A DNA stretch of 22,344 nt, taken from Dysgonamonadaceae bacterium. GTDB lineage: Bacteria > Bacteroidota > Bacteroidia > Bacteroidales > Azobacteroidaceae. The DNA is taken from positions 1 to 22,344 of the forward strand of contig JAISNS010000157.1 in NCBI GenBank assembly GCA_031276105.1, written 5' to 3'. A program made the translations under genes and the position numbers. Below the pieces are notes generated by a model. That model was not told the DNA's origin and searched no databases. It worked only from the letters and a program-made list of their open reading frames with translations. The stretch's first letter is position 1. Each line of letters starts with the position of its first letter. Below, piece by piece: positions 1 to 18,004 of the stretch.

Positions 1-1773
1 TTTTCCGGTCAGGCCTTATTCCCCAAACAAGGCCCGGGCGGCGTGCACTACGAAGGAATCGTGCAAATAACGCTCAACGGAGGGAAAATCCATTCCCGAA
101 ACAATACCTTAGTCGTAGAAAACAGCCACGAAGCCCTGATTACCATCGACATCCGCACCAGCTTCAAAAACAGCGAATACAAAGAACTATGTAATCAAAC
201 GCTGCAAAAAGCCACATCCAAAACATACCGCGAATTAAAACAGGCACATCTAAAAGATTATCAACACCTCTTCAACCGCGTTCACCTGGATTTGGGAAAA
301 AGCGAAGCCGACAAACTGCCGACAGATGTCCGTTGGCAACGCCTGAAAACAGAACGAAAAGACGATCCGGGACTGTTTTCGCTCTTTTTCCAGTACGGAC
401 GCTACCTGCTGATCGCCTCCTCGCGCGAAAACTCACCCTTGCCGGCTAACCTGCAAGGCGTATGGAACGATAATTTAGCCTGCAACATGGCTTGGACATG
501 CGATTATCATTTAGACATCAATACCGAACAAAACTATTGGCTGGCCAATGCCGGCAACTTGCCCGAATGTAACACCCCGCTTTTCACCTATCTGGAAGAC
601 CTGTCGCAATACGGCGAAAAAACAGCCCGCAACGTTTACGGATGCCAAGGCTGGACGGCTCATACCGTAGCAAACGTCTGGGGATATACCGCCCCCGGAC
701 AGGGTACCGGCTGGGGACTCTTCCCAACGGCCGGCGCATGGCTGGCCTCCCACTTGTGGAGCCATTACAGCTACACGTTAGACAAGGACTTTCTGGAACG
801 GCAGGCTTACCCGATCCTGAAAAAAAGCGCGGAATTTTTTCTGGACTACTTGGTCGAAGACCCGCGTAACGGTTACCTGATGTCCGGCCCAAGTACGTCA
901 CCCGAAAATTCGTTCAGAACCGGCGGACGGGAATACAACCTGTCCATGACTCCAACCTGCGACCGGATATTGATCGACGAAACATTTGCCGCCTGTATCG
1001 AAGCAAGCAAGATACTGAACCTCGACGCCCCATTCCGTCAAGACCTGGAAAAAGCGTCGGCCAAACTGCCGCCCATCCAAACAGGAAAAGACGGAACAAT
1101 TCGAGAATGGTTCGAAGATTACGACTTGGCGCATCCCGAGCACCGCCATTCTTCCCATTTGCTGGCCTTGTATCCCTTCAGCCAAATCACGTTGGAGAAA
1201 ACGCCGGAACTGGCCGCCGCCGCCGCCAAATCCGTTCACCGGCAAATCAACGCCGCGCAGTACGAAGATGTAGAATGGAGCCGGGCGAACGTTATCTGTT
1301 TCTATGCCCGCTTGAAAAAAGCGGAAGAAGCTTACGACAACCTCAAAGGCCTGTTGATTGAGTTTTCGCGAGAAAACCTCTTCACGATGTCGCCCGCCGG
1401 TGTTGCCGGCGCCCAGGAAGACATCTTCGAGTTCGACGCCAACGAAGCAGCCCCCGCCGGCATTGCCGAGATGCTCCTGCAAAGTCACGAAGGATACATC
1501 GAATTGCTACCCGCCTTGCCGGAAGCATGGAATAGCGGAAATTTCAAAGGATTATGCGTTCGCGGCGGCGCCGAAGTGGACTTGAAATGGGAAAACGCAC
1601 AAGTGACGGCAGCAAAAATCACAGCCACTGCCGACAATGTTTTTCGGATAAAACTTCCGGCAAATCAGGAAGGCCTCCGGATAAAAAAGAACGGCCGGGC
1701 GTTGCAAAAGCCGGAAATAAATAACGGATTGATAACCGTGGAATTAAATAAAGGAGAATATGTAGAATTTTGA
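1..1773 (+). CDS. GH95 alpha-L-fucosidase-like enzyme, 5'-truncated
   Basis: The frame is open from base 1, so the true start lies upstream; the GTG at 43 is only an internal Val codon. Visible GH95 hallmarks, in order, are NLQGVWN (Asn codon 448), YHLDINTEQNYW (511-540), the SPEN segment with the likely general-acid Glu at 904-906, HRHSSHL from 1141, and FDANEA with an Asp at 1435-1437, followed by the C-terminal beta domain. In Bifidobacterium AfcA, as I recall it, the water-activating pair is Asn421/Asn423 and the acid is Glu566. The His two residues before that pair is kept here, which favours fucosidase over the L-galactosidase variant. The first Asn of the pair is Asp here (514-516). 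The family (alpha/alpha)6 enzymes release terminal alpha-linked fucose. Localisation is unknown because the N-terminus is missing. Codons look more GC-rich than in the later genes. The next gene starts 32 bases after the stop. The family call is firm; the exact substrate is not. Confidence 0.9.
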   Translation, partial: FSGQALFPKQGPGGVHYEGIVQITLNGGKIHSRNNTLVVENSHEALITIDIRTSFKNSEYKELCNQTLQKATSKTYRELKQAHLKDYQHLFNRVHLDLGKSEADKLPTDVRWQRLKTERKDDPGLFSLFFQYGRYLLIASSRENSPLPANLQGVWNDNLACNMAWTCDYHLDINTEQNYWLANAGNLPECNTPLFTYLEDLSQYGEKTARNVYGCQGWTAHTVANVWGYTAPGQGTGWGLFPTAGAWLASHLWSHYSYTLDKDFLERQAYPILKKSAEFFLDYLVEDPRNGYLMSGPSTSPENSFRTGGREYNLSMTPTCDRILIDETFAACIEASKILNLDAPFRQDLEKASAKLPPIQTGKDGTIREWFEDYDLAHPEHRHSSHLLALYPFSQITLEKTPELAAAAAKSVHRQINAAQYEDVEWSRANVICFYARLKKAEEAYDNLKGLLIEFSRENLFTMSPAGVAGAQEDIFEFDANEAAPAGIAEMLLQSHEGYIELLPALPEAWNSGNFKGLCVRGGAEVDLKWENAQVTAAKITATADNVFRIKLPANQEGLRIKKNGRALQKPEINNGLITVELNKGEYVEF

Positions 1774-1805: not shown

Positions 1806-4406
1806 ATGCGAATAAAATTGAAAAAAACATTTTTTGCAGTTCTGTATTCCTTTACGATAACAGGAGCATTTTTCCTGTTTTCCTGTGAAGACGAATACAT
1901 TTACGACGACACCGAACCGGATTTTCTGGGTGCAAGCATTTACGAAGAACTGGAGAAAGACGGAAGATTTACTTATTTTTTGAGGCTGATTGACGAGCTG
2001 AACTATAAGGAAGTCCTTTTATATACCGGAAGCAAAACGTTGTTCCCTGCTAGGGATGACGCCTTTGAACGGTTTTTCCGCTCCAACAGCTATGGCGTCG
2101 GCAAGTTTGAAGAATTAACGCCGGCGCAAAAGCGTGAAATCATGAATGTGAGTATGATCAATATGGCCTACTCGACTTATATGTTATCCAACACACTGTC
2201 CGGTGACGCTGAAAACCCCGGATTGAGCGAGGGTATGGCCATCCGGAGGGTAACAGCCAACACGTATATCGACAGCGTTGGTTTTATTAACGACGACAAA
2301 CTCTTTCAGGCAAATGCCTATTGGGCAGGATACCGCGACAGAGGTTTGTACTTGCTCGAAAACGAACAATCGTCCCGCATGGTGCATTTCACCCCAAACA
2401 ACCGGGCGACGCAAGGTATTACGAATGAAGATTTTTCATTCTTATACAACGGCTTGACATTTAATTCCGACGACATTTATATCAATGGAGTTAAAGTGAT
2501 TGAAAAGGATATCATCTGCAAAAACGGGTATATTCATTTGGTGGAAGAAGTTTTGACGCCCGTTAAAAACATGGCGCAGATTATCCGCGACAATGGAGAA
2601 ACGCACATATTCAATTCTTTAATAAACAAATTTACGATGCCTGTTTATTCCGAAGAATTTTCGCGAAACGTCCACAACTATTACAATGGCTCTACCCCCG
2701 AACGGCCGCTGATCGTGGATACCGTATTTATCAAACGCTATTTCAACGACGTCGATTTTAACATCGACCCCACCGGAAATACCCTGAGTAATTACGGATT
2801 GCTTTATTACGATCCTACCGATCACGCTTACAACGCCAGTTCCAATCAAGACATGGGCGCCATGTTTATCCCGACCGATAAAGCGATGAACGATTATTTC
2901 AACAGTGAAAAAGGACGTTATCTGAAAGATATTTACGGAACGTGGGACAATGTGCCGACGGATTTGCTGGCCTTGTTTTTGAAAAACCACCAGAAAAAAT
3001 CGTTTCTCAGTTCGTTACCTCACGAATGGACAACCATGAACGACGAAAGCAGTTTCTACATGAACGTCAAAGAAAGCGATATTCGGAAAGTGTATGTAGG
3101 CGGCAACGGAGTTGTTTATATCAGCGACGCCGTTTATCCGCCGGTAGATTTTCAATCCGTATTTGCGTCCGTCATGACCACCCCCAATACTAAAATCATG
3201 AATTGGGGTATCCGGCACAACAACATGAAATTTTTCATGTACCTGCGCTCCATAGAGAACATGTACAACCTGATTGTTCCCACCGACGAGGCTTTCGATA
3301 ATTACCGCGATCCCATTTCCTGGGCGCGGGGAACAAATCCGGAAATCTGGTCGTTTTATTATGTTCCGGAAACCGATATGGTTTACGCACAGATTTACCG
3401 GGCGGATGAAAACGGGAATAAGGGAACGTTCCTGAAGGAGTTGAGAAACAATGATCAAAGCATCATTCTCAACCGCCTGAACGATATTATTGATATGCAC
3501 ATTGCTGTCGGTCAAAAAGATAAAGCAACGGGAGTAATGAGCGGTTATATCGACGACGGAAACACCCGGTATGCCCGAACCAAAAGCGGCGCGACGTTAC
3601 AAATAAACGGCGCAGGCGACCGGTTGCAACTCTCCGGCGGTGGAGATATCGAAGCCGGCGTTGCACCGGCGGAAATAATAACCCATCCGGATAGCGGGAA
3701 TAAAAGTACCTTTCTGTCGGAAAACGGGAAAACCTATTTTGTCGATAAAATCCTGCACGACCCTGTCAAATCCGTCTATACTCTGATGGGAGAACATCCG
3801 GAATATGAAGCATTTTTTAATCTGCTGTTAGGTGAAACCGAAGTATTCGATTACTTTAAAGACGAGAAGTCGATTGTTCCGATTTTTGATGCCAAAAAAA
3901 TCGGCAGTACTTCGGGAATCGACTTAGTTGTCAATTCTTTCAATAATTTCCGTTACACGGTGTTTATTCCGACTGCCGAAGCGTTGGCCGAAGCATTCAA
4001 TAACGATCCCAAACTATATACCTGGGCCGAAATAGCGGATGAAACCGATTATGACCGGAAAAAAGAAATGACGCTCTACCTGCTGGAATTTTTGCGCTTC
4101 CATTTCATGGACAATTCCGTTTTCATCGACGGAAAATCATTCTCCGTGAGCTACGAAACGGCCGCCCGCAACGAATTGGGTAAATTCCGGAAGGTGAGGA
4201 TAAACAGCCGGGGCGATAACCTTGAAATATACGGAGAAACGATGCCCCCAAGCGCCGGCGCACAGGTGATAAAAACCGAAGGTTTATACAACCTGATGGC
4301 GCGGGATTATATCGTAAACAACAGTAACTACGCGAACGCAACCCAGATCGTATCTTCGTCGCGAGCAGTTATTCATTTAATTGATAAAGCATTAAAATAT
4401 GAATAG
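1806..4406 (+). CDS. Multi-domain FAS1 (fasciclin) surface lipoprotein
   Basis: This is an 866-residue lipoprotein. The ATG at 1806 is chosen because it gives a clean signal peptide with lipobox LFSC (Cys27); the frame also opens at a TTG at 1770, but that adds a non-signal leader. Cys27 is followed by EDE, which fits a Bacteroidota surface-export signal. About four FAS1-like units are visible, each with an F-x-P-(T/R)-D/E-x-A(F/L/M) motif and most with an NG-x-x-(H/Y) or H-L-I-D strand near the end: roughly residues 40-250 (FPARDDAF at 80), 255-445 (FIPTDKAM at 354), 450-650 (VPTDEAF near 491) and 655-866 (FIPTAEAL at 720). FAS1 domains are known adhesion folds; here a surface binding or scaffold role is inferred. 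No catalytic motif is seen. Its end overlaps the SusC-1 start by 8 bases, suggesting coupled translation and a shared task. The domain call is good; the ligand is unknown. Confidence 0.85.
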   Translation: MRIKLKKTFFAVLYSFTITGAFFLFSCEDEYIYDDTEPDFLGASIYEELEKDGRFTYFLRLIDELNYKEVLLYTGSKTLFPARDDAFERFFRSNSYGVGKFEELTPAQKREIMNVSMINMAYSTYMLSNTLSGDAENPGLSEGMAIRRVTANTYIDSVGFINDDKLFQANAYWAGYRDRGLYLLENEQSSRMVHFTPNNRATQGITNEDFSFLYNGLTFNSDDIYINGVKVIEKDIICKNGYIHLVEEVLTPVKNMAQIIRDNGETHIFNSLINKFTMPVYSEEFSRNVHNYYNGSTPERPLIVDTVFIKRYFNDVDFNIDPTGNTLSNYGLLYYDPTDHAYNASSNQDMGAMFIPTDKAMNDYFNSEKGRYLKDIYGTWDNVPTDLLALFLKNHQKKSFLSSLPHEWTTMNDESSFYMNVKESDIRKVYVGGNGVVYISDAVYPPVDFQSVFASVMTTPNTKIMNWGIRHNNMKFFMYLRSIENMYNLIVPTDEAFDNYRDPISWARGTNPEIWSFYYVPETDMVYAQIYRADENGNKGTFLKELRNNDQSIILNRLNDIIDMHIAVGQKDKATGVMSGYIDDGNTRYARTKSGATLQINGAGDRLQLSGGGDIEAGVAPAEIITHPDSGNKSTFLSENGKTYFVDKILHDPVKSVYTLMGEHPEYEAFFNLLLGETEVFDYFKDEKSIVPIFDAKKIGSTSGIDLVVNSFNNFRYTVFIPTAEALAEAFNNDPKLYTWAEIADETDYDRKKEMTLYLLEFLRFHFMDNSVFIDGKSFSVSYETAARNELGKFRKVRINSRGDNLEIYGETMPPSAGAQVIKTEGLYNLMARDYIVNNSNYANATQIVSSSRAVIHLIDKALKYE

Positions 4407-7400
4407 AATTATGAAAAAAATCACTCCTCACTTGCCGCTTGCCGCTAAGTTGAAGTATATTGTACTGTTTATTCTGGCTCATTTGCCGCTGCTATTGCAG
4501 GGACAAACCGATAATGTGATTGTTACGGGAAAAGTTACGGCATTGGGTGAAGAATTAGTCGGTGTTCAGGTGATTGAAATAGACCGGAATAGCCGGACGG
4601 TTTCGACTACTTCAACCGATTTATATGGGAACTTTTCATTGCCGGTGAAAAATACAAATAATAAGCTTCGTTTTGTAAATATTGGATATATTACGAAAGA
4701 TTTACCGATTGGTAACAGTCGTAAATTCGATGTTGTACTGGAAGAACGTGACGCCAAGAATGTGATTGTTATGGGAAAAGTACATTCGACCTTCGGCGAA
4801 GAATTGATTGGAGTTCAAGTACTCGAAATAGATAAAAACAACCGGGCTATTTCGGCGACTTCCAGTGATTATACCGGCAATTTTTCGTTACAGATAAAAA
4901 ATACGGGCAATAAACTCCGCTTCATATACATCGGGTTTATTACAAAAGAATTTCCTATTGGCGGCAATCGCAAATTCGACGTCGAACTGGAAGAAAGCAA
5001 TACACTTACCGAAGTAGTTGTTTCGGCAAGAGCCATGCACTCCGACGGTACTTTAACGATTCCCCAGCGGGAAATATCGGGAGCCGTGCAAAAACTCTCC
5101 ATCGAAAAGTTCACGGGAATATCGGTGCCTTCGATTGACGACCTTTTGCAGGGGCAAATCGCCGGTTTGGATATCATCGGTAATTCGGGAAACCTCGGAT
5201 CCGGCTCAACGCTTCGCGTTAGGGGTACAACCTCTATCAATTCCAATTCGGAACCCTTGATTGTGGTCAACGACGTCCCTTACGAAAACAATATTCCCTC
5301 TTCTTTTGATTATACCAACCTCAATCAGGAACAGTTTGCCAACTTGTTGAACATCAATCCGGACGATATCGAAGAAATCACCGTATTGAAAGACGGGGCT
5401 TCGGCGGCGATATGGGGGTCGAGAGGAGCGAACGGCGTTATTGCTATCCGTACCAAAAAAGGAGCCAAAGGGCCTACGCGCGTACAGTATGCCTACCGGT
5501 TTTCAGGGAAACAGCAACCGAAAGGTCTTAACATGTTGAACGGTAACGACTATACGATGATGATGAAACAAGCCTATTTCAATCCCAAGCAAGATGAAAA
5601 CGCGGCCAACCTGCCGGAATTTAATTATGACCCGGCTTTTTCGGAGTATGAAAACTTCAACAACAATACCGATTGGGTAAAAGCGCTTTCGCAATACGGA
5701 TTTACTCACGATCACAACGTAACCCTGTCGGGAGGCGGCGAAAAAGCGAATTTCCGTCTTTCGTTCGGTTATTATACGGAAACAGGAACCGTAATCAAAC
5801 AGGAATTGAAACGGCTGACCAACCGGATGGATTTTGAGTACCGGGTATCCGACCGCATCCGCTTTTCTTCTGATTTTGCGATCACCTACTTGGATAACCG
5901 GAAAAACTTGGCTTCGGATGTAGGCGACGGATACAATACCGAGAACTTGTTGAGCATGGCTTACCGGAAAATGCCGAATGTTTCTATTTATCAGCAAGAT
6001 GTTTACGGAAATGATACGGAACTGTTTTATACGATTCCTCAGTCTTCCGGTCTGGATTCCAAACAAAAAGACCTGCTGAATCCGGTAGCGCTGGCGCATT
6101 TGGCCAATAACAACGAAAAGAATATGCGCATTATGCCCACCTTCCGCTTGCGTTACGACATGCTTGATCCGGAAAAAACAACGCTCCGGTACAACGGATA
6201 CATTTCGTTCGACTACGAAAATAACGACAATTCCCGCTTTCTACCGAGGGAAGTTACTTCGGTCAATTGGGATAATGAAAACGTAAACCGTTCGTACGGC
6301 AGGGAATCCGAAGCATTAACCATTTATTCGGATCAGAATTTAACGTATATTCCCGACTGGGGCGACAATCATAACCTCATGTTGTACGCTTCCTGGCAAA
6401 CCACGATGTATAATTCCCTGTACGAAGAATTTGTGCGCTCCGGACTGGCGTCCAAAATGATAACCGATCCTACTCTGCCCGGACAAGACCGGTCGTTTAA
6501 AAGCGGACTGGAACAGCGGCGAACGATGGGCTTGGTCGGACGAATCCATTATACCGTTTTGAATCGTTATATTCTCGACTTATCCATCCGGCGGGATGCA
6601 GACACGCGGTTCGGGCCGAACAACCGCTGGGGTAATTTCCCGGCCGCTTCCGTGAAATGGATTATTTCGGATGAACCTTTCTTGGCGGCAACCGACAACT
6701 GGTTAAGCGAATTTGGAATCCGCGCCGGATATGGAGTTACCGGTAATACTCCGGGGAAAAACTATCTGTATTTCAGCCGTTACGACGATAGCTGGTCCGG
6801 AACGAACAATTACCTTGATATGCCCAGCGTCAAACCGGCTTCAATCAAATTATCGAACTTGAGATGGGAAAGCGTTACCTCCTACAATCTGGGATTCGAC
6901 CTGCATTTATTGGACTTCAAATACAATGTCGATTTCAATATCTATAAGCGGCGAACCAAAGACTTGTTGTTTGAAAACCAGGAAATACCCGGAAGTTCCG
7001 GATTCACAAACCTCGCTTACATCAATGCCGGCGTAATGGACAACCACGGATGGGAAGTTTACCTGTCGACAAACAAAATGATTAAAATCAGTGATTTTAC
7101 TTTTGATTTCAATGTGAACTTCTCCAATAACCTGAATGAAATAGTCGAACTCTCTCCGTCGGTATTAAATTCTTTCAACAAAGACTTCAATTACGAGAAC
7201 GGGTCTTATCTTTCGCGCATTCAGGTAGGAAATCCCTTAGGTTCAATTTATGGATTCCGCTATAAAGGCGTTTACCGGTACGACAAATACGAAGACGCCG
7301 TTAAAAACAACGGAAACAGTCCGCATGTTACCGACGCCGCCGGAAACGTAATTGTCGATGGCAACGGGAAACCGGTTCCGGTGTATTTTGCCTACGGAAC

Positions 7401-8010
7401 AACTTCTTCCTACGTATTCAGGGGAGGCGACGCCATTTATGAAGACGTTAACCGCGACGGCTCCATTGATGAACTGGACATTGTGTATCTGGGCAGTAGT
7501 AATCCCAAATTCAACGGCGGATTCGGCACAACTATCCGCTTCAAAAATTTTTCCATGGTTACGCTGTTCAATTTCCGCTACGGAAATAAAATACTGAACC
7601 GGGCGCGGATGAATGCCGAAAATATGTACAGCAACGACAATCAGTCGATAGCTGTAAACTGGCGCTGGAGAAACGACGGCGACGACCGGCAAATTCCCCG
7701 CGCCTTGTATAATTACGGTTACAACTGGCTGGGTAGCGATCGATTCGTTGAAGACGGCTCTTTCCTCCGGCTCAAATACGTGCTCTTCTCTTACGAGTTT
7801 GATAAAAAATTAATAAAACCATTGTTTTTGAACCAATTAAGTTTGTATCTAACCTTGAATAATTTGTGGACGTGGACGAAATACACAGGGGTAGATCCTG
7901 AAATTTCGCCGAACATGAATCCTGCATACGGAATTATCGGGGTGAGCGAAGACAGAAACAAAACCCCGCGTGCGCAATATTTCACTCTGGGTGCAACTAT
8001 TGGTTTTTAA
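4399..8010 (+). CDS. SusC/RagA-family TonB-dependent outer-membrane transporter (SusC-1)
   Basis: This 1203-residue protein would import oligosaccharides across the outer membrane using TonB energy. Residues 1-36 form a signal peptide ending LLQGQ. Residues 39-116 and 121-199 are two tandem copies of a carboxypeptidase-regulatory-like beta domain, where SusC proteins usually have one. A TEVVVSA segment then leads into the plug, with LRVRGTTSIN (from residue 272) and the ITVLKDG...GSRGANGVI signature. The rest is a 22-strand-type barrel ending in the aromatic C-terminus TLGATIGF. ATG 4399 overlaps the FAS1 stop by 8 bases; ATG 4411 (MKK...) is an equally plausible start that leaves a 4-base gap. 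SusD-1 follows within 15 bases, the standard SusC-SusD pairing. Substrate cannot be read from sequence; neighbours suggest a fucose, mannose and galactose-bearing glycan. Confidence 0.95.
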   Translation: MNRIMKKITPHLPLAAKLKYIVLFILAHLPLLLQGQTDNVIVTGKVTALGEELVGVQVIEIDRNSRTVSTTSTDLYGNFSLPVKNTNNKLRFVNIGYITKDLPIGNSRKFDVVLEERDAKNVIVMGKVHSTFGEELIGVQVLEIDKNNRAISATSSDYTGNFSLQIKNTGNKLRFIYIGFITKEFPIGGNRKFDVELEESNTLTEVVVSARAMHSDGTLTIPQREISGAVQKLSIEKFTGISVPSIDDLLQGQIAGLDIIGNSGNLGSGSTLRVRGTTSINSNSEPLIVVNDVPYENNIPSSFDYTNLNQEQFANLLNINPDDIEEITVLKDGASAAIWGSRGANGVIAIRTKKGAKGPTRVQYAYRFSGKQQPKGLNMLNGNDYTMMMKQAYFNPKQDENAANLPEFNYDPAFSEYENFNNNTDWVKALSQYGFTHDHNVTLSGGGEKANFRLSFGYYTETGTVIKQELKRLTNRMDFEYRVSDRIRFSSDFAITYLDNRKNLASDVGDGYNTENLLSMAYRKMPNVSIYQQDVYGNDTELFYTIPQSSGLDSKQKDLLNPVALAHLANNNEKNMRIMPTFRLRYDMLDPEKTTLRYNGYISFDYENNDNSRFLPREVTSVNWDNENVNRSYGRESEALTIYSDQNLTYIPDWGDNHNLMLYASWQTTMYNSLYEEFVRSGLASKMITDPTLPGQDRSFKSGLEQRRTMGLVGRIHYTVLNRYILDLSIRRDADTRFGPNNRWGNFPAASVKWIISDEPFLAATDNWLSEFGIRAGYGVTGNTPGKNYLYFSRYDDSWSGTNNYLDMPSVKPASIKLSNLRWESVTSYNLGFDLHLLDFKYNVDFNIYKRRTKDLLFENQEIPGSSGFTNLAYINAGVMDNHGWEVYLSTNKMIKISDFTFDFNVNFSNNLNEIVELSPSVLNSFNKDFNYENGSYLSRIQVGNPLGSIYGFRYKGVYRYDKYEDAVKNNGNSPHVTDAAGNVIVDGNGKPVPVYFAYGTTSSYVFRGGDAIYEDVNRDGSIDELDIVYLGSSNPKFNGGFGTTIRFKNFSMVTLFNFRYGNKILNRARMNAENMYSNDNQSIAVNWRWRNDGDDRQIPRALYNYGYNWLGSDRFVEDGSFLRLKYVLFSYEFDKKLIKPLFLNQLSLYLTLNNLWTWTKYTGVDPEISPNMNPAYGIIGVSEDRNKTPRAQYFTLGATIGF
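4513..4995 (+). repeat. Tandem duplication of the SusC-1 N-terminal domain
   Basis: Copy 1 spans 4513-4746 (78 codons) and copy 2 spans 4759-4995 (79 codons), joined by a four-codon linker. By hand alignment 53 of 78 residues are identical, including GEEL, GVQV, GNFSL, NKLRF and RKFDV. At DNA level the copies differ mostly at third positions, so the duplication is not very recent. Each copy has the pattern of the carboxypeptidase-regulatory-like domain found once at the N-terminus of most SusC proteins. Confidence 0.9.
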
Positions 8011-8025
8011 TACATAAAATGATTG

Positions 8026-9591
8026 ATGATAATGAAAAAAATAGTTTTAATAATTTCAATTACAGGCCTTATTTTGACTACAGGATTAAGTTCTTGTAAC
8101 GATTGGTTTGAATTGCATCCGCAATCCGAAACCATACTGGAAGATTTCTGGCAAGACGAAAACGACGTCAAAAGTATGGTCGCCGCCTGTTACCGTTCAA
8201 TGAACGAAACCGGCTTTATGGAACGCCTGCTGGTCTGGGGAGAAATACGTTCCGATAATATACTGAAAGGAGCCAGTCAAAATATTGATATTGACCGTAT
8301 CCTCGAATTGACGCTCAACGCGACCAACCCCTATACTTCGTGGAACGATTTTTACCGGACAATTAATTATTGCAATACGATAATCTATTATGCGCCTGCC
8401 GTGAGGGAAAAAGATCCTAATTTTACGGAAGGGCAACTCCGGTCTTATATCGCTGAAGCAAAAGGAATCCGGGCGCTGTGTTATTTCACGTTGGTGCGTA
8501 CTTTCCGCGACATCCCTTTTACGGTGGAGCCGGCTTTCGACGATTCCAAACCGTTTGAGTTACCCCAGGCAGACCCGGACGAAATTGTCCGTTACCTGAT
8601 CGACGACCTGAAAGAAATTGAAAACAACGCAACGCCCAAATCACTGAGCCGGAGCTACGATAAGGGACGCATTACACGAAAAGCCATTCAATCGTTGATT
8701 GCGGATATGGCCTTGTGGTTAAACGATTATCAAACCTGTATCGATTATTGCGATAAAGTGATAACCGAGAATCCCCTGATGACGCTGGAACTTCCGCAAA
8801 GTTTTGTTATCAATACTTTCGTGGGCGGACTTTCGAAGGAAAGTATCTTTGAACTCCGCTTTAATTCTTCCCTGCCCAATTATGCCGTGCAGGAAATGTA
8901 CGGTCAATACAGTTCGCGAACGGCCAATGTTTATAAAGTGTCTTCTTTTGATTTTAGTAAAATCTCGTTGTTCGAAAATACCGATTGGCGAGCCAAAGAC
9001 TTTTTTATTCCCACTGAAAGCTCCGGACTGTTTAGCATTGTGAAATATGTCGCCTACCGTTCCCGTATCAATCCCAGCGGAACCGTAAACCGGAGCGACT
9101 ATTCTTTTCTCACTACCTCCACGCTGTGGGTTTTTTACCGCCTGTCCGATATTTACCTGATGAAAGCCGAAGCGCTGGTGGAACAGGGAGGAATGGAAAA
9201 ACTGGAAGAAGCTTTCGAACTGGTACGGAAAACCTACGAACGGGCTAATCCCGACCTGATAGAAGGCAGTTTTGCTTTCTCTTCGTTCAATTCACAGGGA
9301 GCCATGCGCGAACTGGTCTTTGACGAACGGCAACGCGAATTTCTTTTTGAAGGAAAAAGGTATTTCGACCTGCTCCGGCGGATAAAAAGAGAGGGAACGC
9401 CGGGAAATGTAGTGAGTAAATATTTGATGCGGAAATACGAAGCGCAGGGACTGGAATCGCCGACCATACGAAGTAAAATCAATGATAAAGACGCCATTTA
9501 TATGCCGATTAACGAAAAGGAACTGAAAAATAATCCGCTGTTGGTACAAAATCCGTTTTATGTCTTATCCGCCGATATTAGTAAAAATTAA
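8026..9591 (+). CDS. SusD/RagB-family glycan-binding lipoprotein (SusD-1)
   Basis: This is a 521-residue lipoprotein that would cap SusC-1 and bind glycan at the cell surface. The signal peptide ends in lipobox LSSC (Cys24) followed by NDW. The N-terminal part shows the usual SusD opening (WFELHPQ, then FWQDENDV) and a helical TPR-like core, with SYIAEAKGIRALCYF near residue 140. The C-terminal part carries the family signature FDERQREFLFEGKRYFDLLR. Length is normal for SusD. A TTG at 8023, ATG 8026 and ATG 8032 are all in frame; ATG 8026 is used here, and ATG 8032 (MKK...) is equally likely. Only 15 bases separate it from SusC-1, and the next gene begins 13 bases after its stop, so co-transcription is likely. 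Ligand is unknown. Confidence 0.93.
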   Translation: MIMKKIVLIISITGLILTTGLSSCNDWFELHPQSETILEDFWQDENDVKSMVAACYRSMNETGFMERLLVWGEIRSDNILKGASQNIDIDRILELTLNATNPYTSWNDFYRTINYCNTIIYYAPAVREKDPNFTEGQLRSYIAEAKGIRALCYFTLVRTFRDIPFTVEPAFDDSKPFELPQADPDEIVRYLIDDLKEIENNATPKSLSRSYDKGRITRKAIQSLIADMALWLNDYQTCIDYCDKVITENPLMTLELPQSFVINTFVGGLSKESIFELRFNSSLPNYAVQEMYGQYSSRTANVYKVSSFDFSKISLFENTDWRAKDFFIPTESSGLFSIVKYVAYRSRINPSGTVNRSDYSFLTTSTLWVFYRLSDIYLMKAEALVEQGGMEKLEEAFELVRKTYERANPDLIEGSFAFSSFNSQGAMRELVFDERQREFLFEGKRYFDLLRRIKREGTPGNVVSKYLMRKYEAQGLESPTIRSKINDKDAIYMPINEKELKNNPLLVQNPFYVLSADISKN

Positions 9592-9603
9592 AAACAAAAA
9601 AAA

Positions 9604-11436
9604 ATGAAAACAAAAGCCATTTTTATTGTATTTACGCTGTTGCTTGTTCAGGGATTTTTCCTTGCTTGCGACGAAAAAGTACAGGAAGACGCTTTCTATA
9701 CTTTTACGGGAGAAACCGTAGCGTCGTTTTGTGAAAACGAAGAAAATAACTTGTCGATTTTCGCCCGCCTGATAGACGAATCCGGCGCTCATCCTTTATT
9801 GTCTGTGTACGGTCATTTTACCTGTTTTGCTCCGACCGACGAGGCTTTCGAAACTTATTTCAAAGATGAAGGCATCAGCTACGAAGATTTGTCGAATGAA
9901 GAGAAGAAAAAAATTGTATATGACCACATCATTAAGGGAATTACAATGGAATATCTGTCTGATTTCTTTGAACAGGGCGCTTTGCCCAAGTCCAATATGA
10001 ACGACCGCGAGCTATCGATCTCCTTTGTTGACGAAGGCGACAAGCAGGCAATTTTAGTGAATAACAGTTCGAAAATCCTTTCGAAAGACAATGAAGTGCA
10101 TAACGGCGTCGTTCATATTGTAAACCGGGTTATCAAGCCGTCCATCAACGATTTGTTATCTGTCGTGAAAGATGCCGGATACTTCCGCCTGTTTTCCGAA
10201 GCTTTCGAATTAACCCATCTGATCGACTCCATGATGGCCGATTACGATGAATCGTACACCGATCCCAGTCCCGGAAACGACCAGGTAACTATTGTAATTT
10301 CACCGGAACTCTCTTATACGGTATCTGTCATTCATGCGAAAAAATTAGGATATACTATTTTTGCCGAAACAGATGAAGTCTTTGCAACGGCAGGAATACA
10401 AAACCTGAACGATTTGATCGAACTGGCGAAAGAGTATTACGGAACGGAAAACTTGGACGACTATACTCACCGGAATAATCCGTTGAACAAATTTATTTCC
10501 TACCACATCCTGGATCGCCGGATGGCTACTAATTCCATTATCTATTCCGGCGGAAACACAGCCCAACACGCAATGGACAGGCGGCACGAATATTACGAAA
10601 CTTTCCTGAAAATGCGTTTGATAGAAATCAAGGCGGGAAATAAAATTAATACGCTTAACGACGGGAGCTACGTGGGAGTGAACGAAGAATTAAGTAATCT
10701 GGACGCCAAAAACGGTTATGTTCACGCATTAACGGACGTGCTGGTTTATGACGAATATGCGATGATAAACGACGTTCTGAACAAACGGATGCGCATCGAC
10801 GCTTACGCCATTCCGCCGCAATTGACGAACAACAATATCCGCTGGAAAAATGTAGGGGAATCCTTTACTATTTCTCCGGAACTTTGCGGGGAATCCTTTC
10901 AATTCAATCCGGCTACTAAAATCATTTTCTGGGCAAGCAACGGCTGGGACGATCATCAAGGCGATGAAGTCAGTATTCGCGGCTGGTACGACTTTACCCT
11001 CCGCTTGCCGCCGGTTCCGCCGGGAACGTATGAAATCCGTTTCGGTTACAATGCCGTTTTTTGGCGGGGAATTACCCAATTATTTATCGACGGTGAAATT
11101 TGCGGTATTCCCGTTGACTTGAAGATTACCGGCGATGACCCGCGCGTAGGCTGGATTGCCGATAACCAGACAATGGACAACGGCGAAGAAAACGACAAGA
11201 TGATGCGTAACCGGGGCTATATGAAAAGCGGGAACTCCATTATCAATGAAGGTTGGGGGAATATCCTCCGCAATTCGATAAATGATTTACGGGTAATTGT
11301 GGGAACGTTTTCGTTTACCGAATACGATTATCACTATTTCCGCGCTAAAAATGTGGAATCGGAAAACGCCGAATTTCATCTGGACTTTATCGAATATGTT
11401 CCGGTAAGCCACCTGGCAGTTGAAGACAAAGAATGA
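9604..11436 (+). CDS. FAS1-domain lipoprotein with C-terminal beta-sandwich-like domain
   Basis: This 610-residue lipoprotein has lipobox FLAC (Cys22) followed by DEK, an acidic context that fits surface display. Two FAS1 units are visible: about residues 38-175 (FAPTDEAF from 75, ending NGVVHIVNRVI from 167) and 178-380 (FAETDEVF near 253, ending NGYVHAL from 370). Residues about 395-610 are not FAS1. They are rich in aromatic and glycine residues, with the pattern FTLRLPPVPPGTYEIRFGYN, then a DG turn, and end FHLDFIEYVPV, which resembles carbohydrate-binding beta-sandwich modules by eye. The gene sits directly after SusD-1, the slot normally used by SusE/SusF-type surface glycan-binding proteins, so a glycan-binding role is inferred. 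It starts 12 A-rich bases after the SusD-1 stop. FAS1 call is firm; the C-terminal function is not. Confidence 0.85.
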   Translation: MKTKAIFIVFTLLLVQGFFLACDEKVQEDAFYTFTGETVASFCENEENNLSIFARLIDESGAHPLLSVYGHFTCFAPTDEAFETYFKDEGISYEDLSNEEKKKIVYDHIIKGITMEYLSDFFEQGALPKSNMNDRELSISFVDEGDKQAILVNNSSKILSKDNEVHNGVVHIVNRVIKPSINDLLSVVKDAGYFRLFSEAFELTHLIDSMMADYDESYTDPSPGNDQVTIVISPELSYTVSVIHAKKLGYTIFAETDEVFATAGIQNLNDLIELAKEYYGTENLDDYTHRNNPLNKFISYHILDRRMATNSIIYSGGNTAQHAMDRRHEYYETFLKMRLIEIKAGNKINTLNDGSYVGVNEELSNLDAKNGYVHALTDVLVYDEYAMINDVLNKRMRIDAYAIPPQLTNNNIRWKNVGESFTISPELCGESFQFNPATKIIFWASNGWDDHQGDEVSIRGWYDFTLRLPPVPPGTYEIRFGYNAVFWRGITQLFIDGEICGIPVDLKITGDDPRVGWIADNQTMDNGEENDKMMRNRGYMKSGNSIINEGWGNILRNSINDLRVIVGTFSFTEYDYHYFRAKNVESENAEFHLDFIEYVPVSHLAVEDKE

Positions 11437-11440
11437 TTGG

Positions 11441-11472
11441 AATTAAGAATTAAGAATTAAAAATTAAGAATT
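11441..11472 (+). repeat. Heptamer tandem repeat (AATTAAG)n in a spacer
   Basis: The spacer between two FAS1 genes consists almost entirely of AATTAAG repeated 4.6 times, with one base changed in the third copy (AATTAAA). It ends two bases before the next ATG and so sits where a ribosome would bind. Such AT-rich repeats occur between Bacteroidota genes; the function here is unknown. Copy-number change would alter the spacing, and possibly the translation, of the downstream gene. Confidence 0.85.
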
Positions 11473-11473
11473 T

Positions 11474-13084
11474 ATGATTTACAATAAAATTAAACATAAG
11501 TATATACTGTTCATCTGCTTGTTCTTCGCTTGTATGCTTTGCGCCTGTACGGAAAAACAGGATGAACATTACGACCGGTCGGATTTACTGCCCGGAGAAA
11601 ACCTGTTTGAATTGATTGCCGGTAATGACCAATTATCGGATTTCAAACAGTTGATAGAAATAGCGGACTATGACTCGCTGCTGGTTTCCAATCAGACATT
11701 TACCGTATTTGCTCCGGTCAATGAGAGCTTGTCCGGTATCGACCTGAATGTGATTACGCAAGAAGAAGCCCGCCGGATTGTAGGCAACCACATTGCCCGT
11801 TTCAATAATCCGGCGTCAACCGCGCCGGAAAAATTAGTACGGATGATAAATAAGAAAATACACACTTTCTCGAATGGAGGCGCCGAGTTTGGCGGCTCCC
11901 GCTTGCTGGAAAAAGATGTTCGCGCCAAAAACGGCATTCTTCATTTGCTGGATGCGCAAATTTCCTACCGGTACAATTTGTACGAATTTATTCAACTGAA
12001 TCCGTCCACGTCCCAATTAGCGACATTCATCCGCTCGTTTGAAGAATATCTGTTTGATGAGCGCCTGAGTATCCCGTTGGACGTTAATGAATTCGGACAA
12101 ACGGTTTATGATACGGTGGTGACTTTTTATAACCGCTTATTCGACGACGTGCCTTTCGGAGGCTTGGGCCCCATCCATTTGGAAGACTCTGTTTTTACGA
12201 TGCTGATTCCGGACGATCGGGCATGGAATGTCGCTTACGAAAACTTAAAGCCTCATTTCAAGCGATACAACACCAATCAGGCCATAGCCGATTCGATTCA
12301 AAATTTGCAAATATCCTTAGCCATCCTTGAAGATTTGATTTTTCGGGGAAGAGAGGACAATCCGGCTGCGCTGGACTCAATAATATCCACTTCGCCGGCT
12401 GCCGAATATATGCACAATCCCGGTGATTTGTTCGGAAACGCTTCCCGTATTGAAGGCTCCAACGGCTTGATTTACCTGACGGATAATCTTCAATACAATG
12501 AAGCGGAAACCTGGAATAAACCGGTTATTATAGAAAGCGATATTCAACAGGGAAGAATAATTGGCCCGGGTACAGCCGTTTATACCCATACAAGCGACGC
12601 TAATACGGATATTTCCGTGAGCGAACAACGCTACATTACGGTGGAAGCGGCAACCTCTTCCGTTCAGCCGGAAGTTACTTTCGAAATACCGAACATCCTT
12701 GCGGGCGTTTACGATATTTACGTCGAGTTTTTGCCCGGCAGTATCGACGGTTTACCTAACGATAGCAGCAAAGTGCTGTTTGCCTTAAAATATATGAATG
12801 CCTCCGGCAGAATGACCACACGCGATATTATTTCAAACAACTTAGTCACCAGCGGTACCCGAAAAGTAATCATGAAAGTTGCCGGTAATTTTGAATTTCC
12901 GATTTCCAACTGTTACGATCGGCTTTGGATGCTCGACTATTATAAAGGCTTGCACACCATAGACGAGCGGGTAGCCAACACGACATTGACCATAAAAACG
13001 AATGTGACTACCAGTGAATTTCTGAAGAAATTTTCCCGCAAGTTTCGGATTGACCGGATTATTTTTGAACCAGTACGTAAATAG
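11474..13084 (+). CDS. FAS1-domain lipoprotein with a distinct C-terminal domain
   Basis: This 536-residue lipoprotein has lipobox LCAC (Cys25) followed by TEKQDE, which is acidic and fits surface display. FAS1 unit 1 covers about residues 35-165 (FTVFAPVNESL from 76, ending NGILHLLDAQI from 153). FAS1 unit 2 covers about 168-340 (FTMLIPDDRAW from 241, ending NGLIYLTDNL from 330). Residues about 345-536 form a separate beta-rich domain with a PNILAGVYDIYVEFLPG segment and a final FRIDRIIFEPV strand. That layout resembles the C-terminal domain of the preceding gene, though the sequences differ. The ATG is immediately preceded by the (AATTAAG)n repeat instead of a Shine-Dalgarno. It lies between the two SusC/SusD pairs and could serve either as a surface glycan-binding protein. 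No enzyme motif is seen. Confidence 0.85.
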   Translation: MIYNKIKHKYILFICLFFACMLCACTEKQDEHYDRSDLLPGENLFELIAGNDQLSDFKQLIEIADYDSLLVSNQTFTVFAPVNESLSGIDLNVITQEEARRIVGNHIARFNNPASTAPEKLVRMINKKIHTFSNGGAEFGGSRLLEKDVRAKNGILHLLDAQISYRYNLYEFIQLNPSTSQLATFIRSFEEYLFDERLSIPLDVNEFGQTVYDTVVTFYNRLFDDVPFGGLGPIHLEDSVFTMLIPDDRAWNVAYENLKPHFKRYNTNQAIADSIQNLQISLAILEDLIFRGREDNPAALDSIISTSPAAEYMHNPGDLFGNASRIEGSNGLIYLTDNLQYNEAETWNKPVIIESDIQQGRIIGPGTAVYTHTSDANTDISVSEQRYITVEAATSSVQPEVTFEIPNILAGVYDIYVEFLPGSIDGLPNDSSKVLFALKYMNASGRMTTRDIISNNLVTSGTRKVIMKVAGNFEFPISNCYDRLWMLDYYKGLHTIDERVANTTLTIKTNVTTSEFLKKFSRKFRIDRIIFEPVRK

Positions 13085-13095: not shown

Positions 13096-16000
13096 ATGAA
13101 AAAAACAGAAAAAAATAAGAACAGGATTTGTTCTATCGCACAAAAAACAGGTATTTTCTTTTTCCTGCTGTTATGGACGGGAATAAACGTGTATGCGCAA
13201 GAGAACGAAATAAAAGGCCGGGTAATCGACCTTTCCGACGGGCGAGGATTTGCCGGAGCGCGCATCAGCGTTATCAATACACGCCTGACGGCCATGTCGG
13301 ACGAAAACGGGACGTTTGTAATCAAGACGCCCTCAACAGACGTTGTGTTTAGTGTAGAAGCTCCCGGTTATCAGTCGCAAACCGTAGCCTTGCAAGGCCG
13401 TACAGAACTTGAAATACGGATGCTGCAACAAACCGGCACAGGCTCTTTTTACGGCGACAGGCAATTTTCAACAACGAATGCCGTATCTATTTCCGATTTT
13501 TCGCCGGATATTCTGACGATTGATGAAGATTTGACCGGTCGATTGAACGGGCAAATCCGGGCAATCAACCATTCCGGCACACCGGGAAGCGGTTCGGCGG
13601 TTTTTGCCAACGGATTCAATTCGCTGATTGCAACTTCCCAACCGCTTTATATCGTTGACGGCATTCCCCTGCAAATACACGAAGGAAACGGATCGATCAA
13701 TGCCGGGTTTTACAATAATCCTTTAGCCGGAATTGATCCGGATGATGTGGAGAAAATAACCGTATTGAAAGGCGGATCGTCGCTTTACGGAAGTAAAGGC
13801 GCTAACGGCGTTATTCTGATAGATACAAAGCGAAGCCGTAATCAAGCAACGGAAATAGCGCTCAATATCAGTTCCGGTTATCGCAGTCCGTTCAAAACCA
13901 TTCCGGTAATGGACGCTGTAGCTTACCGGCTGTATGCTTCCGATGTGATTGGCAATCAGTTTACCAACTCGTCTTACGTAGAAAAATATCAATTTCTTGA
14001 AGACGATCCCGGCAAATCCTATTATAAAGCCAATCACAACAATACCGATTGGCTGGACGGGGTCAATACCGGCGCATGGAACCAACATTACGGCATCAAC
14101 GTCAAAGGAGGCGACGATATTGCTTTATACGCCATATCGGTAGGATACACGCAAAGCGAAGGAAATGTGGATAATACCAATTTCGACCGTCTGAATTTCA
14201 GGGCAAATTCCGATATTTCCCTCACTCCCAAATTCAAAGTCGCTTTCGATATTGCCTTTACTCAAACATCCAATAATCTGAGGAATGATGGAATTGACAG
14301 CATTTCAGCGCCGGTATATTTGTCGCTGATTAAATCTCCTTTGTATAATCCGTATGAATTTGACGTAAACGGAAATATAACTCAGCGCTTGAGCGATTAC
14401 GACGAACTTAATGCAGGTAATCCGCTGTCGATCATCCAAAAAGGAATCGGCAAATCCAAACGCTACACCTTGAGCGCAAACGCCCGCCCGGCTTATACAT
14501 TCGGCGATGATAAAATGATAATCAGTTTGCTGCTTTCTTATGGCTGGAGAAAATTGAACGAAAGCGCATTCATTCCGGATCGAGGGTTGCCCGAATATCC
14601 TTTATACAACGAGTTAGGAGAAATTTACGTGTGGGCTAAAAACAAGGTATCCGACCGGATGGATACGCATACTTCAATCATTGCAGACGGACGGGTCGAT
14701 TGGAATGTATTGCGGGATGAAACGAATCATTTGAAAATTTTCGGTGGTTATCGCTATTATTCGGATACATATAAATCGCGTAACGCTTACGGATACAACA
14801 GCGGCTCCGACAATATGACGCAATTATCCAATACAACGGAAAATCTCCGCTTTGCTAACGGTATCAGCGACCATTGGAATTCCATGTCGTGGTATGCCGA
14901 CGCCGGATATGTATTCAAAAACCGGTATCTTTTGAATATATCGGCAGCCATGGACGCTTCTTCCCGTTTCGGAAAAGAAGCGGAAAACGCCCTTAAAATC
15001 GGAGGCGTATCTTGGGGAATATTTCCGTCGGTTTCGGCCGGCTGGATTATTTCTTCGGAAAATTTTATGCGGGATTTGCCTTTCGTTAATTTCCTGAAAT
15101 TAACGACCGCTTACAGTGTATCAGGGAATGATGATTTACCTAATTATGCTACCCGCACGTATTTTTCGGCAATCAGTTTGTCTTCAAATGCCACCGGACT
15201 TGTGTTGGAGAATATCGGAAATCCCCGGTTAAAATGGGAAACAACCCGGATGACTTCTGCCGGCCTGGATTTTAGCCTGTTCGACAATCGCTGGACGGTA
15301 AAGGCTCAAATTTATGCTTCGAACACTTCCGATTTGTTGACCCAAAAACGATTGGACGAAGTGGCGGGAATTAAGGATTATTGGAGTAACAACGGCAAAT
15401 TGAAAAATGCCGGTTACGAAATAACCACCAATATCCGTATCTTGAACGGCAAAAACCTGAAATTGGATTTCGGCGCTTCTTTCGGTCATTACAAAAATGA
15501 AATAACTTCATTGGCAAACGGTTCGTTTTTAACGGATATAGCCGGCGCTCAAGTGCTTACGCAAGAAGGACAACCCGCAGGCGTATTTTACGGATACAAA
15601 ACGGCAGGCGTATTTTCTACCCGGGAAGAAGCTACCGCCGCGCAGTTAGCGCTTTTGAATATTGCCGGAAAACCGGTTCCTTTTGAAGCGGGCGATATAC
15701 ATTTTGAAGATGTAAATCAAAAAACGGTAAATGGTTATTCAATTATAGACGAAAACGACCGGCAAATTATCGGCGATCCGAATCCGGATTTCTACGGTAA
15801 TTTCAATTTCAGTCTTTCATGGAAGAAATTTACATTAGACGCCTTATTTACTTACACTTACGGCAATGATGTTTATAACGCTTTCCGTGCCAACCTCGAA
15901 TCGGGGAAAAATGCGAATAATCAATCCACCGCCATGCAAAACCGTTGGGTAGCCAATGGTCAAGTAACCGATATTCCTCGCGCCGTTTACGGCGACCCGA

Positions 16001-16272
16001 TGGGGAATGCCCGTTTTTCAGACCGATGGATTGAAGACGGCTCTTACCTGAAATTCAAGTCTTTGTCGTTGAATTATAAATTACCGCTTCATTTGACTTT
16101 CCTTCAGGAAATATCAGTATGGGGAGCGGTAAGCAATATTTTTACTTATACAAAGTATTTGGGCGCCGATCCGGAATTTGCGTATGGAAATTCCGTATTG
16201 TATCAGGGAATCGACGCAGGCCTTGTTCCTCCGTCCCGCTCTTTTAATTTGGGAATAAAGATTAATTTATAA
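13096..16272 (+). CDS. SusC/RagA-family TonB-dependent outer-membrane transporter (SusC-2), divergent
   Basis: This 1058-residue protein has a signal peptide with an SPI site after NVYA (residue 34). One carboxypeptidase-regulatory-like domain (about 35-110) follows, then a plug with PLYIVDGIP and the signature DPDDVEKITVLKGG...GSKGANGVILIDTK. A long beta barrel ends in FNLGIKINL. Two usual SusC landmarks are weak or missing: there is no EVVV stretch before the plug, and the plug strand normally reading R-x-RG reads VFANGFNSL instead. The length and barrel are otherwise complete, with no frameshift. It is about 145 residues shorter than SusC-1, partly because it lacks the duplicated domain, and the two are clearly different in sequence. 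It is followed by SusD-2 after 25 bases. It presumably imports a second oligosaccharide from the same source; the substrate is unknown. Confidence 0.92.
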   Translation: MKKTEKNKNRICSIAQKTGIFFFLLLWTGINVYAQENEIKGRVIDLSDGRGFAGARISVINTRLTAMSDENGTFVIKTPSTDVVFSVEAPGYQSQTVALQGRTELEIRMLQQTGTGSFYGDRQFSTTNAVSISDFSPDILTIDEDLTGRLNGQIRAINHSGTPGSGSAVFANGFNSLIATSQPLYIVDGIPLQIHEGNGSINAGFYNNPLAGIDPDDVEKITVLKGGSSLYGSKGANGVILIDTKRSRNQATEIALNISSGYRSPFKTIPVMDAVAYRLYASDVIGNQFTNSSYVEKYQFLEDDPGKSYYKANHNNTDWLDGVNTGAWNQHYGINVKGGDDIALYAISVGYTQSEGNVDNTNFDRLNFRANSDISLTPKFKVAFDIAFTQTSNNLRNDGIDSISAPVYLSLIKSPLYNPYEFDVNGNITQRLSDYDELNAGNPLSIIQKGIGKSKRYTLSANARPAYTFGDDKMIISLLLSYGWRKLNESAFIPDRGLPEYPLYNELGEIYVWAKNKVSDRMDTHTSIIADGRVDWNVLRDETNHLKIFGGYRYYSDTYKSRNAYGYNSGSDNMTQLSNTTENLRFANGISDHWNSMSWYADAGYVFKNRYLLNISAAMDASSRFGKEAENALKIGGVSWGIFPSVSAGWIISSENFMRDLPFVNFLKLTTAYSVSGNDDLPNYATRTYFSAISLSSNATGLVLENIGNPRLKWETTRMTSAGLDFSLFDNRWTVKAQIYASNTSDLLTQKRLDEVAGIKDYWSNNGKLKNAGYEITTNIRILNGKNLKLDFGASFGHYKNEITSLANGSFLTDIAGAQVLTQEGQPAGVFYGYKTAGVFSTREEATAAQLALLNIAGKPVPFEAGDIHFEDVNQKTVNGYSIIDENDRQIIGDPNPDFYGNFNFSLSWKKFTLDALFTYTYGNDVYNAFRANLESGKNANNQSTAMQNRWVANGQVTDIPRAVYGDPMGNARFSDRWIEDGSYLKFKSLSLNYKLPLHLTFLQEISVWGAVSNIFTYTKYLGADPEFAYGNSVLYQGIDAGLVPPSRSFNLGIKINL

Positions 16273-16297: not shown

Positions 16298-18004
16298 ATG
16301 AAAGTAATGAAAAAAACAAAAAAAATGAAAAAAGTAACATCAAGTTTACTGGCAATCATCCTGTTATTTTCCGCTTCCGCGTGTCGGGATATGCTGGAAA
16401 CCGATTCAAACCGGATAGTTTTTGATGATAAATACCGGTTAGACGACCCGGATAATCCTTTTTATGCCATTTCGGGTATTTTAAGTAAGCTTCAGCAAAT
16501 CGGCGACCGCTATGTCCTTCTGGGAGAATTGCGCGGCGATTTGATGCAAACAACGTCTCTTGCACCTGTTTCTTTACAGGAAATCAATAATTTTCAGGTG
16601 ACGGCAAACAGCGAATATGCAGATAAAAGCGATTATTATGCGATTATCAATAATTGCAATTATGTACTTCAACGTTTGGATACTAATCAGGTTGTTCGCG
16701 ACGAAAAAGTAATTCTCCGTGATTATGCCGAAGTGAAAACCATTCGGGCGTGGACTTATTTTCAGTTAGGTCAGATTTTTGGGGAAGCCGTTTATTTTAA
16801 TGTTCCCATTATTGACATCGAATCTTCGTCGGCAAAATATCCGGTCATCAAATTAGATGATTTGGTGGAAATTTTGATAGACGACTTGAAACCGTATTCC
16901 GGTTTACCGGCAATCGACATTTCGCGAACGCCTAACCCGTTCATTTCCGCTAATTTGCTTCTGGGCGATTTGTATCTTTATCAAAATAATTATAAGGAAG
17001 CGGCTTGGCGGTATTACAACGAAATAGTTAATTCCCAGCTTATAATCTCCGGAAATTACCTCAATCGTTGGAATACCGTAAGTTTTGAAGGCCATTCTCT
17101 TTCGCATTGGTATTCGTATCTCTCCGAAGCGATTGCCCAAATTCAGTTTTCTTCCGATCCTAAAGAATTTCACAGCCAACTGGTTCGTTTTTCATTTAAT
17201 AATGAGCCGTTTATTGTACCGGTAAAAGAGTACATTGATTTTATGAATTCGTCGGTATACATTTATGCCGAAAATTACAATAGCGCTGTTACCGGATTCA
17301 GGGAAGGCGACTTACGCGGTCATGGATCGACAAAGAGCGGCCGGTTTGGCGATGCTTTCTATCTCTTGGATTCGAGATCCGATTTCCTTTTAGAGAAAGA
17401 AATGTATGTGATATATAAATTCTATAATACTTCAAATTTGGTGGGTACGGGTTCCGATCCGGCTAATGCCCTCCTTTCGGAACATGATATGCTGGCTTAT
17501 TTGACGACTATCCCGATTTACCGGAATCCGCATCTTTATTTACGTTTTGCAGAAGCTGTAAACCGGGATGGAAAGCCTACTTTGGCTGCCGCCGTATTGA
17601 AGTACGGGCTTAATTCCGCCAATATCAACGATACAAGAAAGGTCAATCCGGCAGAAATAGGCGAGTATAACTTTCAGTCAGGCAATTTTGATGCTAATAT
17701 TCCCATGGCAGCCCGCGGACGTGGTTACGGTATTGCCATTGATACGATTGCTTTCGTTATTCCTGAATTTCCCGGCAGCGCCAATCCACGGCAGGATTCC
17801 ATCTTGTGGGTGGAAGATCGCATTCTCGAAGAACTGTCTGCTGAAACATCTTTTGAAGGGAACCGTTTCTTTGACTTGCTGCGTGTTTCCCGCCGCCGCG
17901 ACAATCATCCGGAATTTATGGCTAATAAAGTCGCCGCAAAATACGATAATCCGGATGCTATGAAAGCCCGGTTGATGAACTTGGATAACTGGTTCTTGCC
18001 ATGA
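16298..18004 (+). CDS. SusD/RagB-family lipoprotein (SusD-2)
   Basis: This lipoprotein of up to 568 residues is the expected partner of SusC-2. The signal peptide ends in lipobox SASAC (Cys29), followed by RDMLE. Three in-frame ATGs (16298, 16307 and 16325) lie in an A-rich, lysine-coding run, and any could be the start; the first is used. Family traits are the helical core with DYAEVKTIRAWTYFQLGQ (about residues 143-160), a LYLRFAEAVNR segment, and the late FEGNRFFDLLRVSRR motif. The C-terminus NLDNWFLP is a typical SusD ending, so the protein looks complete. Its stop overlaps the start of the GH92 gene in an ATGA, suggesting translational coupling. Conservation of the usual SusD C-terminal signature is looser than in SusD-1. 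Ligand unknown. Confidence 0.9.
   Translation: MKVMKKTKKMKKVTSSLLAIILLFSASACRDMLETDSNRIVFDDKYRLDDPDNPFYAISGILSKLQQIGDRYVLLGELRGDLMQTTSLAPVSLQEINNFQVTANSEYADKSDYYAIINNCNYVLQRLDTNQVVRDEKVILRDYAEVKTIRAWTYFQLGQIFGEAVYFNVPIIDIESSSAKYPVIKLDDLVEILIDDLKPYSGLPAIDISRTPNPFISANLLLGDLYLYQNNYKEAAWRYYNEIVNSQLIISGNYLNRWNTVSFEGHSLSHWYSYLSEAIAQIQFSSDPKEFHSQLVRFSFNNEPFIVPVKEYIDFMNSSVYIYAENYNSAVTGFREGDLRGHGSTKSGRFGDAFYLLDSRSDFLLEKEMYVIYKFYNTSNLVGTGSDPANALLSEHDMLAYLTTIPIYRNPHLYLRFAEAVNRDGKPTLAAAVLKYGLNSANINDTRKVNPAEIGEYNFQSGNFDANIPMAARGRGYGIAIDTIAFVIPEFPGSANPRQDSILWVEDRILEELSAETSFEGNRFFDLLRVSRRRDNHPEFMANKVAAKYDNPDAMKARLMNLDNWFLP

Follow-up and report, generated by a model that had tools for sequence, protein, structure and literature searches.

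A collinear seven-gene cassette of Bacteroidales with two SusC/SusD types and three FAS1 lipoproteins

We analyzed a stretch of 22,344 nucleotides (the window; contig JAISNS010000157.1) from a Dysgonamonadaceae bacterium, a gut symbiont, and found that it carries a seven-gene cassette, P1-SusC1-SusD1-P2-P3-SusC2-SusD2, in which two types of SusC/SusD pair (SusCD) are combined with three lipoproteins built on FAS1 domains. The same seven-gene unit occurs in many lineages and host types. In our view, this DNA likely holds a polysaccharide utilization locus (PUL) whose conserved seven-gene core captures and imports glycan at the outer membrane, with the three FAS1 lipoproteins on the cell surface. 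An earlier note on this DNA had reported three FAS1 lipoproteins around a single SusCD; the proteins, their positions, and their place beside SusC/SusD were confirmed, whereas the unit itself is larger and includes a second SusCD. All genes of the cassette lie on the plus strand. P1 (1806..4406), a lipoprotein of 866 amino acids with four FAS1 domains, is the first gene and is followed by the TonB-dependent transporter SusC1 (4399..8010; TIGR04056, with two N-terminal CarbopepD_reg_2 domains), its SusD_RagB lipoprotein lid SusD1 (8023..9591), the lipoproteins P2 (9604..11436) and P3 (11474..13084), a second TonB-dependent transporter, SusC2 (13096..16272), orthologously distinct from SusC1, and a second SusD-type lipoprotein, SusD2 (16298..18004).

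A P2 profile search of GTDB species genomes found 307 encoding stretches, and the best 80 of these were retained; with two same-genome contigs, 20 regions from order-level relatives, and the window itself, 103 loci were parsed. Since these loci were fetched for holding a P2-like match, the counts describe the company of P2 and not the prevalence of the cassette. The seven genes were complete, collinear, and uninterrupted in 62 of the 103 loci according to a script working on open reading frames (ORFs), with median intergenic gaps of 8 to 25 bases; the earlier note had proposed a test of whether the order is conserved, and it is, in many genomes. Two further loci (L031 and L035) also hold all seven genes in order by tblastn; a longer antisense ORF had masked P2 in L022, L031, and L035, and SusD2 in L035 as well, and by tblastn L022 has P2 only. 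Manual sorting divided the other 41 loci into 24 that keep the order but are imperfect, 13 with P2 but no recognized SusCD, and four variants. Among these 24, 15 of the best 80 as well as L091 and L104 are truncated at the edge of a contig or region, and seven more of the best 80 have an ORF that is split, carry P2 in duplicate, or contain a gene hidden by a longer antisense ORF. Thus, the best 80 loci consist of 45 complete cassettes, 22 collinear but imperfect ones, and 13 without SusCD. As for the variants, L101 and L108 have one slot unrecognized (P1 in L108), L110 carries P2 upstream of P1, and L111 has no P3.

In an order-wide sample, the P2 profile matched in 29 of 149 genomes, some by generic FAS1 only, and a complete cassette was seen in 12 of the 149 among the subset of matches fetched. 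The profile of the divergent P2 subclass matched in 35 of 158 genomes of the genus of Bacteroides nordii, some by small FAS1 proteins only; 20 Bacteroides regions yielded 11 full orders, two collinear cassettes with split genes (L164 and L165), one lone P3 (L166), and six flanks. Genes split into adjacent ORFs were also seen in the collinear cassettes L020, L028, and L052, and in all five loci the splits are either draft errors or decay. Besides, three metagenome-assembled genome (MAG) records titled Clostridium or Roseburia (L034, L046, and L055) are probably mislabelled, because they carry this Bacteroidales cassette. The 13 loci without recognized SusCD are L017, L018, L022, L060, L065, L070, L072, L079, L082, L083, L086, L088, and L089; the neighbors of P2 are housekeeping-type genes in some (NAD synthase, ClpB-like, and DPPIV-like) and melibiase-like genes in others.

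Phylogenetic analysis of the 62 complete cassettes separated SusC1 from SusC2 into two clades with a support of 1.0, and SusD1 from SusD2 likewise. Between the seven proteins, the pairwise distances are correlated at 0.92 to 0.96, with minimum pairwise identities of 14 to 31%. Genomes with several cassettes (L058/L071/L090 and the window/L092) retain all seven genes in each copy, and every gene of the window cassette is nearest to cassettes of Paludibacter (L013 and L015), not to its genome-mate L092. The genome of the window holds two more cassettes, L092 (contig C61) with all seven genes and L091 (contig C305), which is cut by the contig end; all 10 FAS1 matches in the assembly lie on these two contigs or on that of the window. 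SusC1 of the window is about 100 amino acids longer than most of its relatives, and its two tandem CarbopepD_reg_2 domains (residues ~40 to 210) are closely similar, as if the N-terminal domain had recently been duplicated.

The FAS1 profile (PF02469) matched P1, P2, and P3 at 58, 84, and 44 bits, respectively, all above the curated cut-off of 22 bits. Counts of four, two, and two FAS1 domains had been proposed: confidently predicted folds back four domains in P1 and two in P2 (residues 36 to 384), whereas P3 has one clear and one probable FAS1 domain, the second giving only a weak profile match. Among the structure matches listed, no module other than FAS1 was recognized in P1. Where the source records label these proteins, they are called only fasciclin, hypothetical, and similar. 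The lipobox Cys, claimed together with early acidic residues for all three proteins, is invariant in the relatives of P1 (42/42, of 43 aligned), P2 (55/55), and P3 (48/48), and at least two acidic residues stand at positions +2 to +6 in 37/42, 45/55, and 45/48 of them. The mean acidic count at these positions is 2.1 to 2.2, compared with 0.6 to 0.7 predicted from background composition. In Bacteroidota, acidic residues just after the lipobox Cys mark surface export, and we infer a surface position for P1, P2, and P3. P2 also has the genetic setting of a surface glycan-binding protein (SGBP), a lipoprotein encoded beside susD, as it directly follows SusD1.

The earlier note had placed a FAS1 capture or scaffold set where SusE/SusF-type proteins usually sit. 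The conserved order agrees with this, and no match to the SusE/SusF Pfam families, which are sequence families only, was found in P1 to P3 at E 0.1 or in the C-terminal modules of P2 and P3 at E 1. The part that contacts glycan, however, is likely not FAS1 but the C-terminal domain of P2 (residues 392 to 610; 10777..11433), which the structure model folds as a jelly roll resembling a carbohydrate-binding module (CBM). CBM folds are among the structural matches listed, namely xanthan-binding modules (MiXBM and the xanthan lyase module) and CBM35, at 7 to 23% identity; for the xanthan-binding modules we presume the label CBM84, from the listing of PMC10049358. Unlike MiXBM, the xanthan lyase module, and CBM35, the P2 module has a conserved NDKMMRNRGYMK loop. 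The C-terminal module of P3 (residues about 343 to 536) is perhaps a glycan-contacting part too. Homology between the C-terminal modules of P2 and P3 was considered and not found (probability about 2%).

These features suggest that P2, and probably P3 likewise, acts as an SGBP in which a lipid anchor and a FAS1-FAS1 stalk would carry the C-terminal module, the CBM-like jelly-roll tip of P2 gripping the glycan. Known SGBPs have Ig-like stalks, which FAS1 would replace here. P1, in which FAS1 is all that is recognized, is the candidate scaffold, and most likely it would hold the surface lipoproteins to, or link, the two SusCD complexes. Locus-specific enzymes beside the cassette would cut the glycan and set the substrate, and the fragments would then enter via both TonB-driven SusCD transporters. 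More tentatively, all seven proteins may form one outer-membrane machine in which P1 serves as the backbone and the FAS1 lipoproteins physically join the two different SusCDs; shared CBM-tipped arms would then capture different fragments of one complex glycan, and the two channels would import them side by side.

The source assembly of the window (contig C18 of G000) has 2.58 Mb in 370 contigs and is 86% complete, and the window proteins have their closest named relatives among MAG proteins that bear the labels Candidatus Symbiothrix, Dysgonamonadaceae, or Tannerella. An ORF list places ten large genes on the window, all on the plus strand. Outside the core lie, as a locus-specific flank, a GH95 enzyme truncated by the window start (1..1773), a GH92 enzyme (18001..20286), and a putative α-galactosidase-like (melibiase-like) enzyme (20332..22323); the window thus holds two SusCDs together with carbohydrate-active enzymes, the combination that defines a PUL. 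The melibiase-like enzyme matched Melibiase_C below the threshold only, and a Pfam scan of it gave no catalytic-domain match; its relative in Xylanibacter brevis passes the Melibiase_C cut-off. Such relatives recur next to the cassettes of X. brevis and B. nordii.

We scanned 61 downstream and 52 upstream neighbors, that is, 107 of 158 listed flank proteins and six from the regions of order-level relatives. FG-GAP proteins were most frequent downstream (18/61) and GH95 upstream (13/52), along with a few GH92, GH43, GH88, and other proteins. The flanks vary between loci, and the idea of one enzyme as universal partner of the cassette was rejected. In L019, L025, L029, L034, and L055, an FG-GAP repeat protein of about 680 to 735 amino acids stands after SusD2 (about 18.3 to 21 kb), like an eighth cassette gene. 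Cassettes of X. brevis and B. nordii near the subclass of the window, whose own flanks are GH95, GH92, and melibiase-like, lie close to GH92, melibiase-like, and FG-GAP genes. Cassettes of the divergent subclass often stand beside rhamnogalacturonan lyases: RGL11 immediately follows SusD2 in B. nordii (L115), and downstream of one cassette in Dysgonomonas sp. 216 (L119) there are several such lyases. RGL11 was found at most 30 kb from 15 of the 26 near-full divergent-subclass P2 matches in Bacteroides genomes, compared with 0.87 expected under random placement; the DNA showed 14 of the 26 to lie in cassettes, a few with split genes, and of the remaining 12, 11 have a P1-like FAS1 frame at a distance of 7 to 9 kb. 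The control family Lyase_8, present in 13 of the same 21 genomes, stood within this distance of none of the 26 (by eye). The substrate of the divergent Bacteroides subclass is therefore likely rhamnogalacturonan I (RG-I). RG-I as the substrate of the window itself is unsupported, with no pectinase or pectin lyase in the window; the single RGL11 match of its assembly is on a different contig, and its nearness to the cassette cannot be judged because the assembly is in 370 contigs.

The FAS1 lipoproteins might instead serve as adhesins, attaching the cell to plant particles or protist hosts, and have no more than the operon in common with the transporters. A passage of PMC10147662 presents FAS1 as a domain for adhesion, and the Candidatus Symbiothrix, Dysgonamonadaceae, and Tannerella relatives would suit such a role; we nevertheless regard it as rather unlikely, since the proteins keep one fixed place between two SusCDs in many lineages and types of host, the C-terminal part of P2 is a CBM-like module, and pure adhesins would have no need for co-inheritance with two transporter types. 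Slightly less probable still is the strongest form of the interpretation in the earlier note, in which the FAS1 domains themselves bind glycan and the C-terminal modules are structural. The domain content of P1 fits this, as does the presence, among the structural matches, of the FAS1 structure of stabilin-2, a hyaluronic acid receptor, but the C-terminal domain of P2 matches CBM folds, and its conservation (0.56) slightly exceeds that of FAS1-1 (0.52) and FAS1-2 (0.49), one loop reaching 0.77. Import of something other than glycan, such as glycopeptide or protein fragments, seems very improbable: a part of PMC7661554 reports SusC-type proteins that take up peptides, and one of the 61 downstream proteins matched Peptidase_M64, whereas the recognized flank families consist for the most part of glycoside hydrolases, RGL11 lyases, and FG-GAP proteins.

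Several observations weigh against glycan capture by a co-inherited seven-gene core, or against RG-I as a substrate. The sequence link between the P2 module and CBMs is weak (E 0.001, the next match, a spurious one, being at E 0.008), and the C-terminal module of P3 gave no match to PDB sequences. P2 can exist alone, because 13 of the best 80 matches have no recognized SusCD alongside, some of them on short contigs. Species descent accounts for part of the co-divergence correlation, and in L058, L090, and L106 the nearest relative varies gene by gene, which speaks against strict inheritance as a unit and makes exchange within cassettes possible. The null for RGL11 assumes uniform placement whereas PULs cluster, RGL11 was searched only in cassette-holding genomes, and 11 of the 26 P2 matches have no RGL11 within 30 kb, six of these having none on the same contig.

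PULs, SusCDs, and SGBPs are already known; what appears new is that seven genes form a fixed cassette whose accessory proteins are built on FAS1. In line with the earlier remark that FAS1 is poorly described as an accessory of glycan uptake, we found no description of FAS1 or fasciclin proteins with SusC, SusD, or PULs among the matches listed from the open-licence literature, an absence that is provisional. PMC10199937 and PMC7661554 mention fasciclin and SusC, in the parts that bear on them, as separate remarks, and two other papers mentioning both (PMC9029922 and PMC9281564) are off topic by title. The cassette probably gives Bacteroidales a little-noticed means of capturing and importing complex glycans, and this strictly ordered transport unit, whose range extends from termite-type symbionts to Bacteroides of the human gut, appears to be nameless. 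If our interpretation is true, FAS1 would gain a concrete role in nutrient uptake, a class of PULs, of which some are likely pectic, would have a marker, and the question why some PULs retain two SusCDs would become testable.

SusE/SusF and SGBP-B-type proteins are lipoproteins whose genes neighbor susD and which combine stalk domains with a binding module at the distal end; P1 to P3 differ from them in having FAS1 instead of Ig-like domains and in matching no SusE/SusF Pfam family. The levan and dextran utilisomes have one SusCD type, whereas the cassette has two, together with three FAS1 lipoproteins. Utilisome work (PMC7618045) describes SusCD and surface-exposed proteins acting as one uptake machine, a feature that the cassette would share. 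According to a section of a review (PMC8002723), RG-I uptake in Bacteroides thetaiotaomicron involves two SusCDs (BT4164/BT4165 and BT4168/BT4169) flanking the RG-I-binding SGBP BT4167. As far as that section describes it, this PUL (BT4164-BT4170) resembles the cassette, by gene number alone, in having two SusCDs with genes between them, one encoding an SGBP, and it has a lyase alongside, as do several divergent-subclass cassettes; it differs in that BT4170 is a lyase where the gene numbering would put P1.

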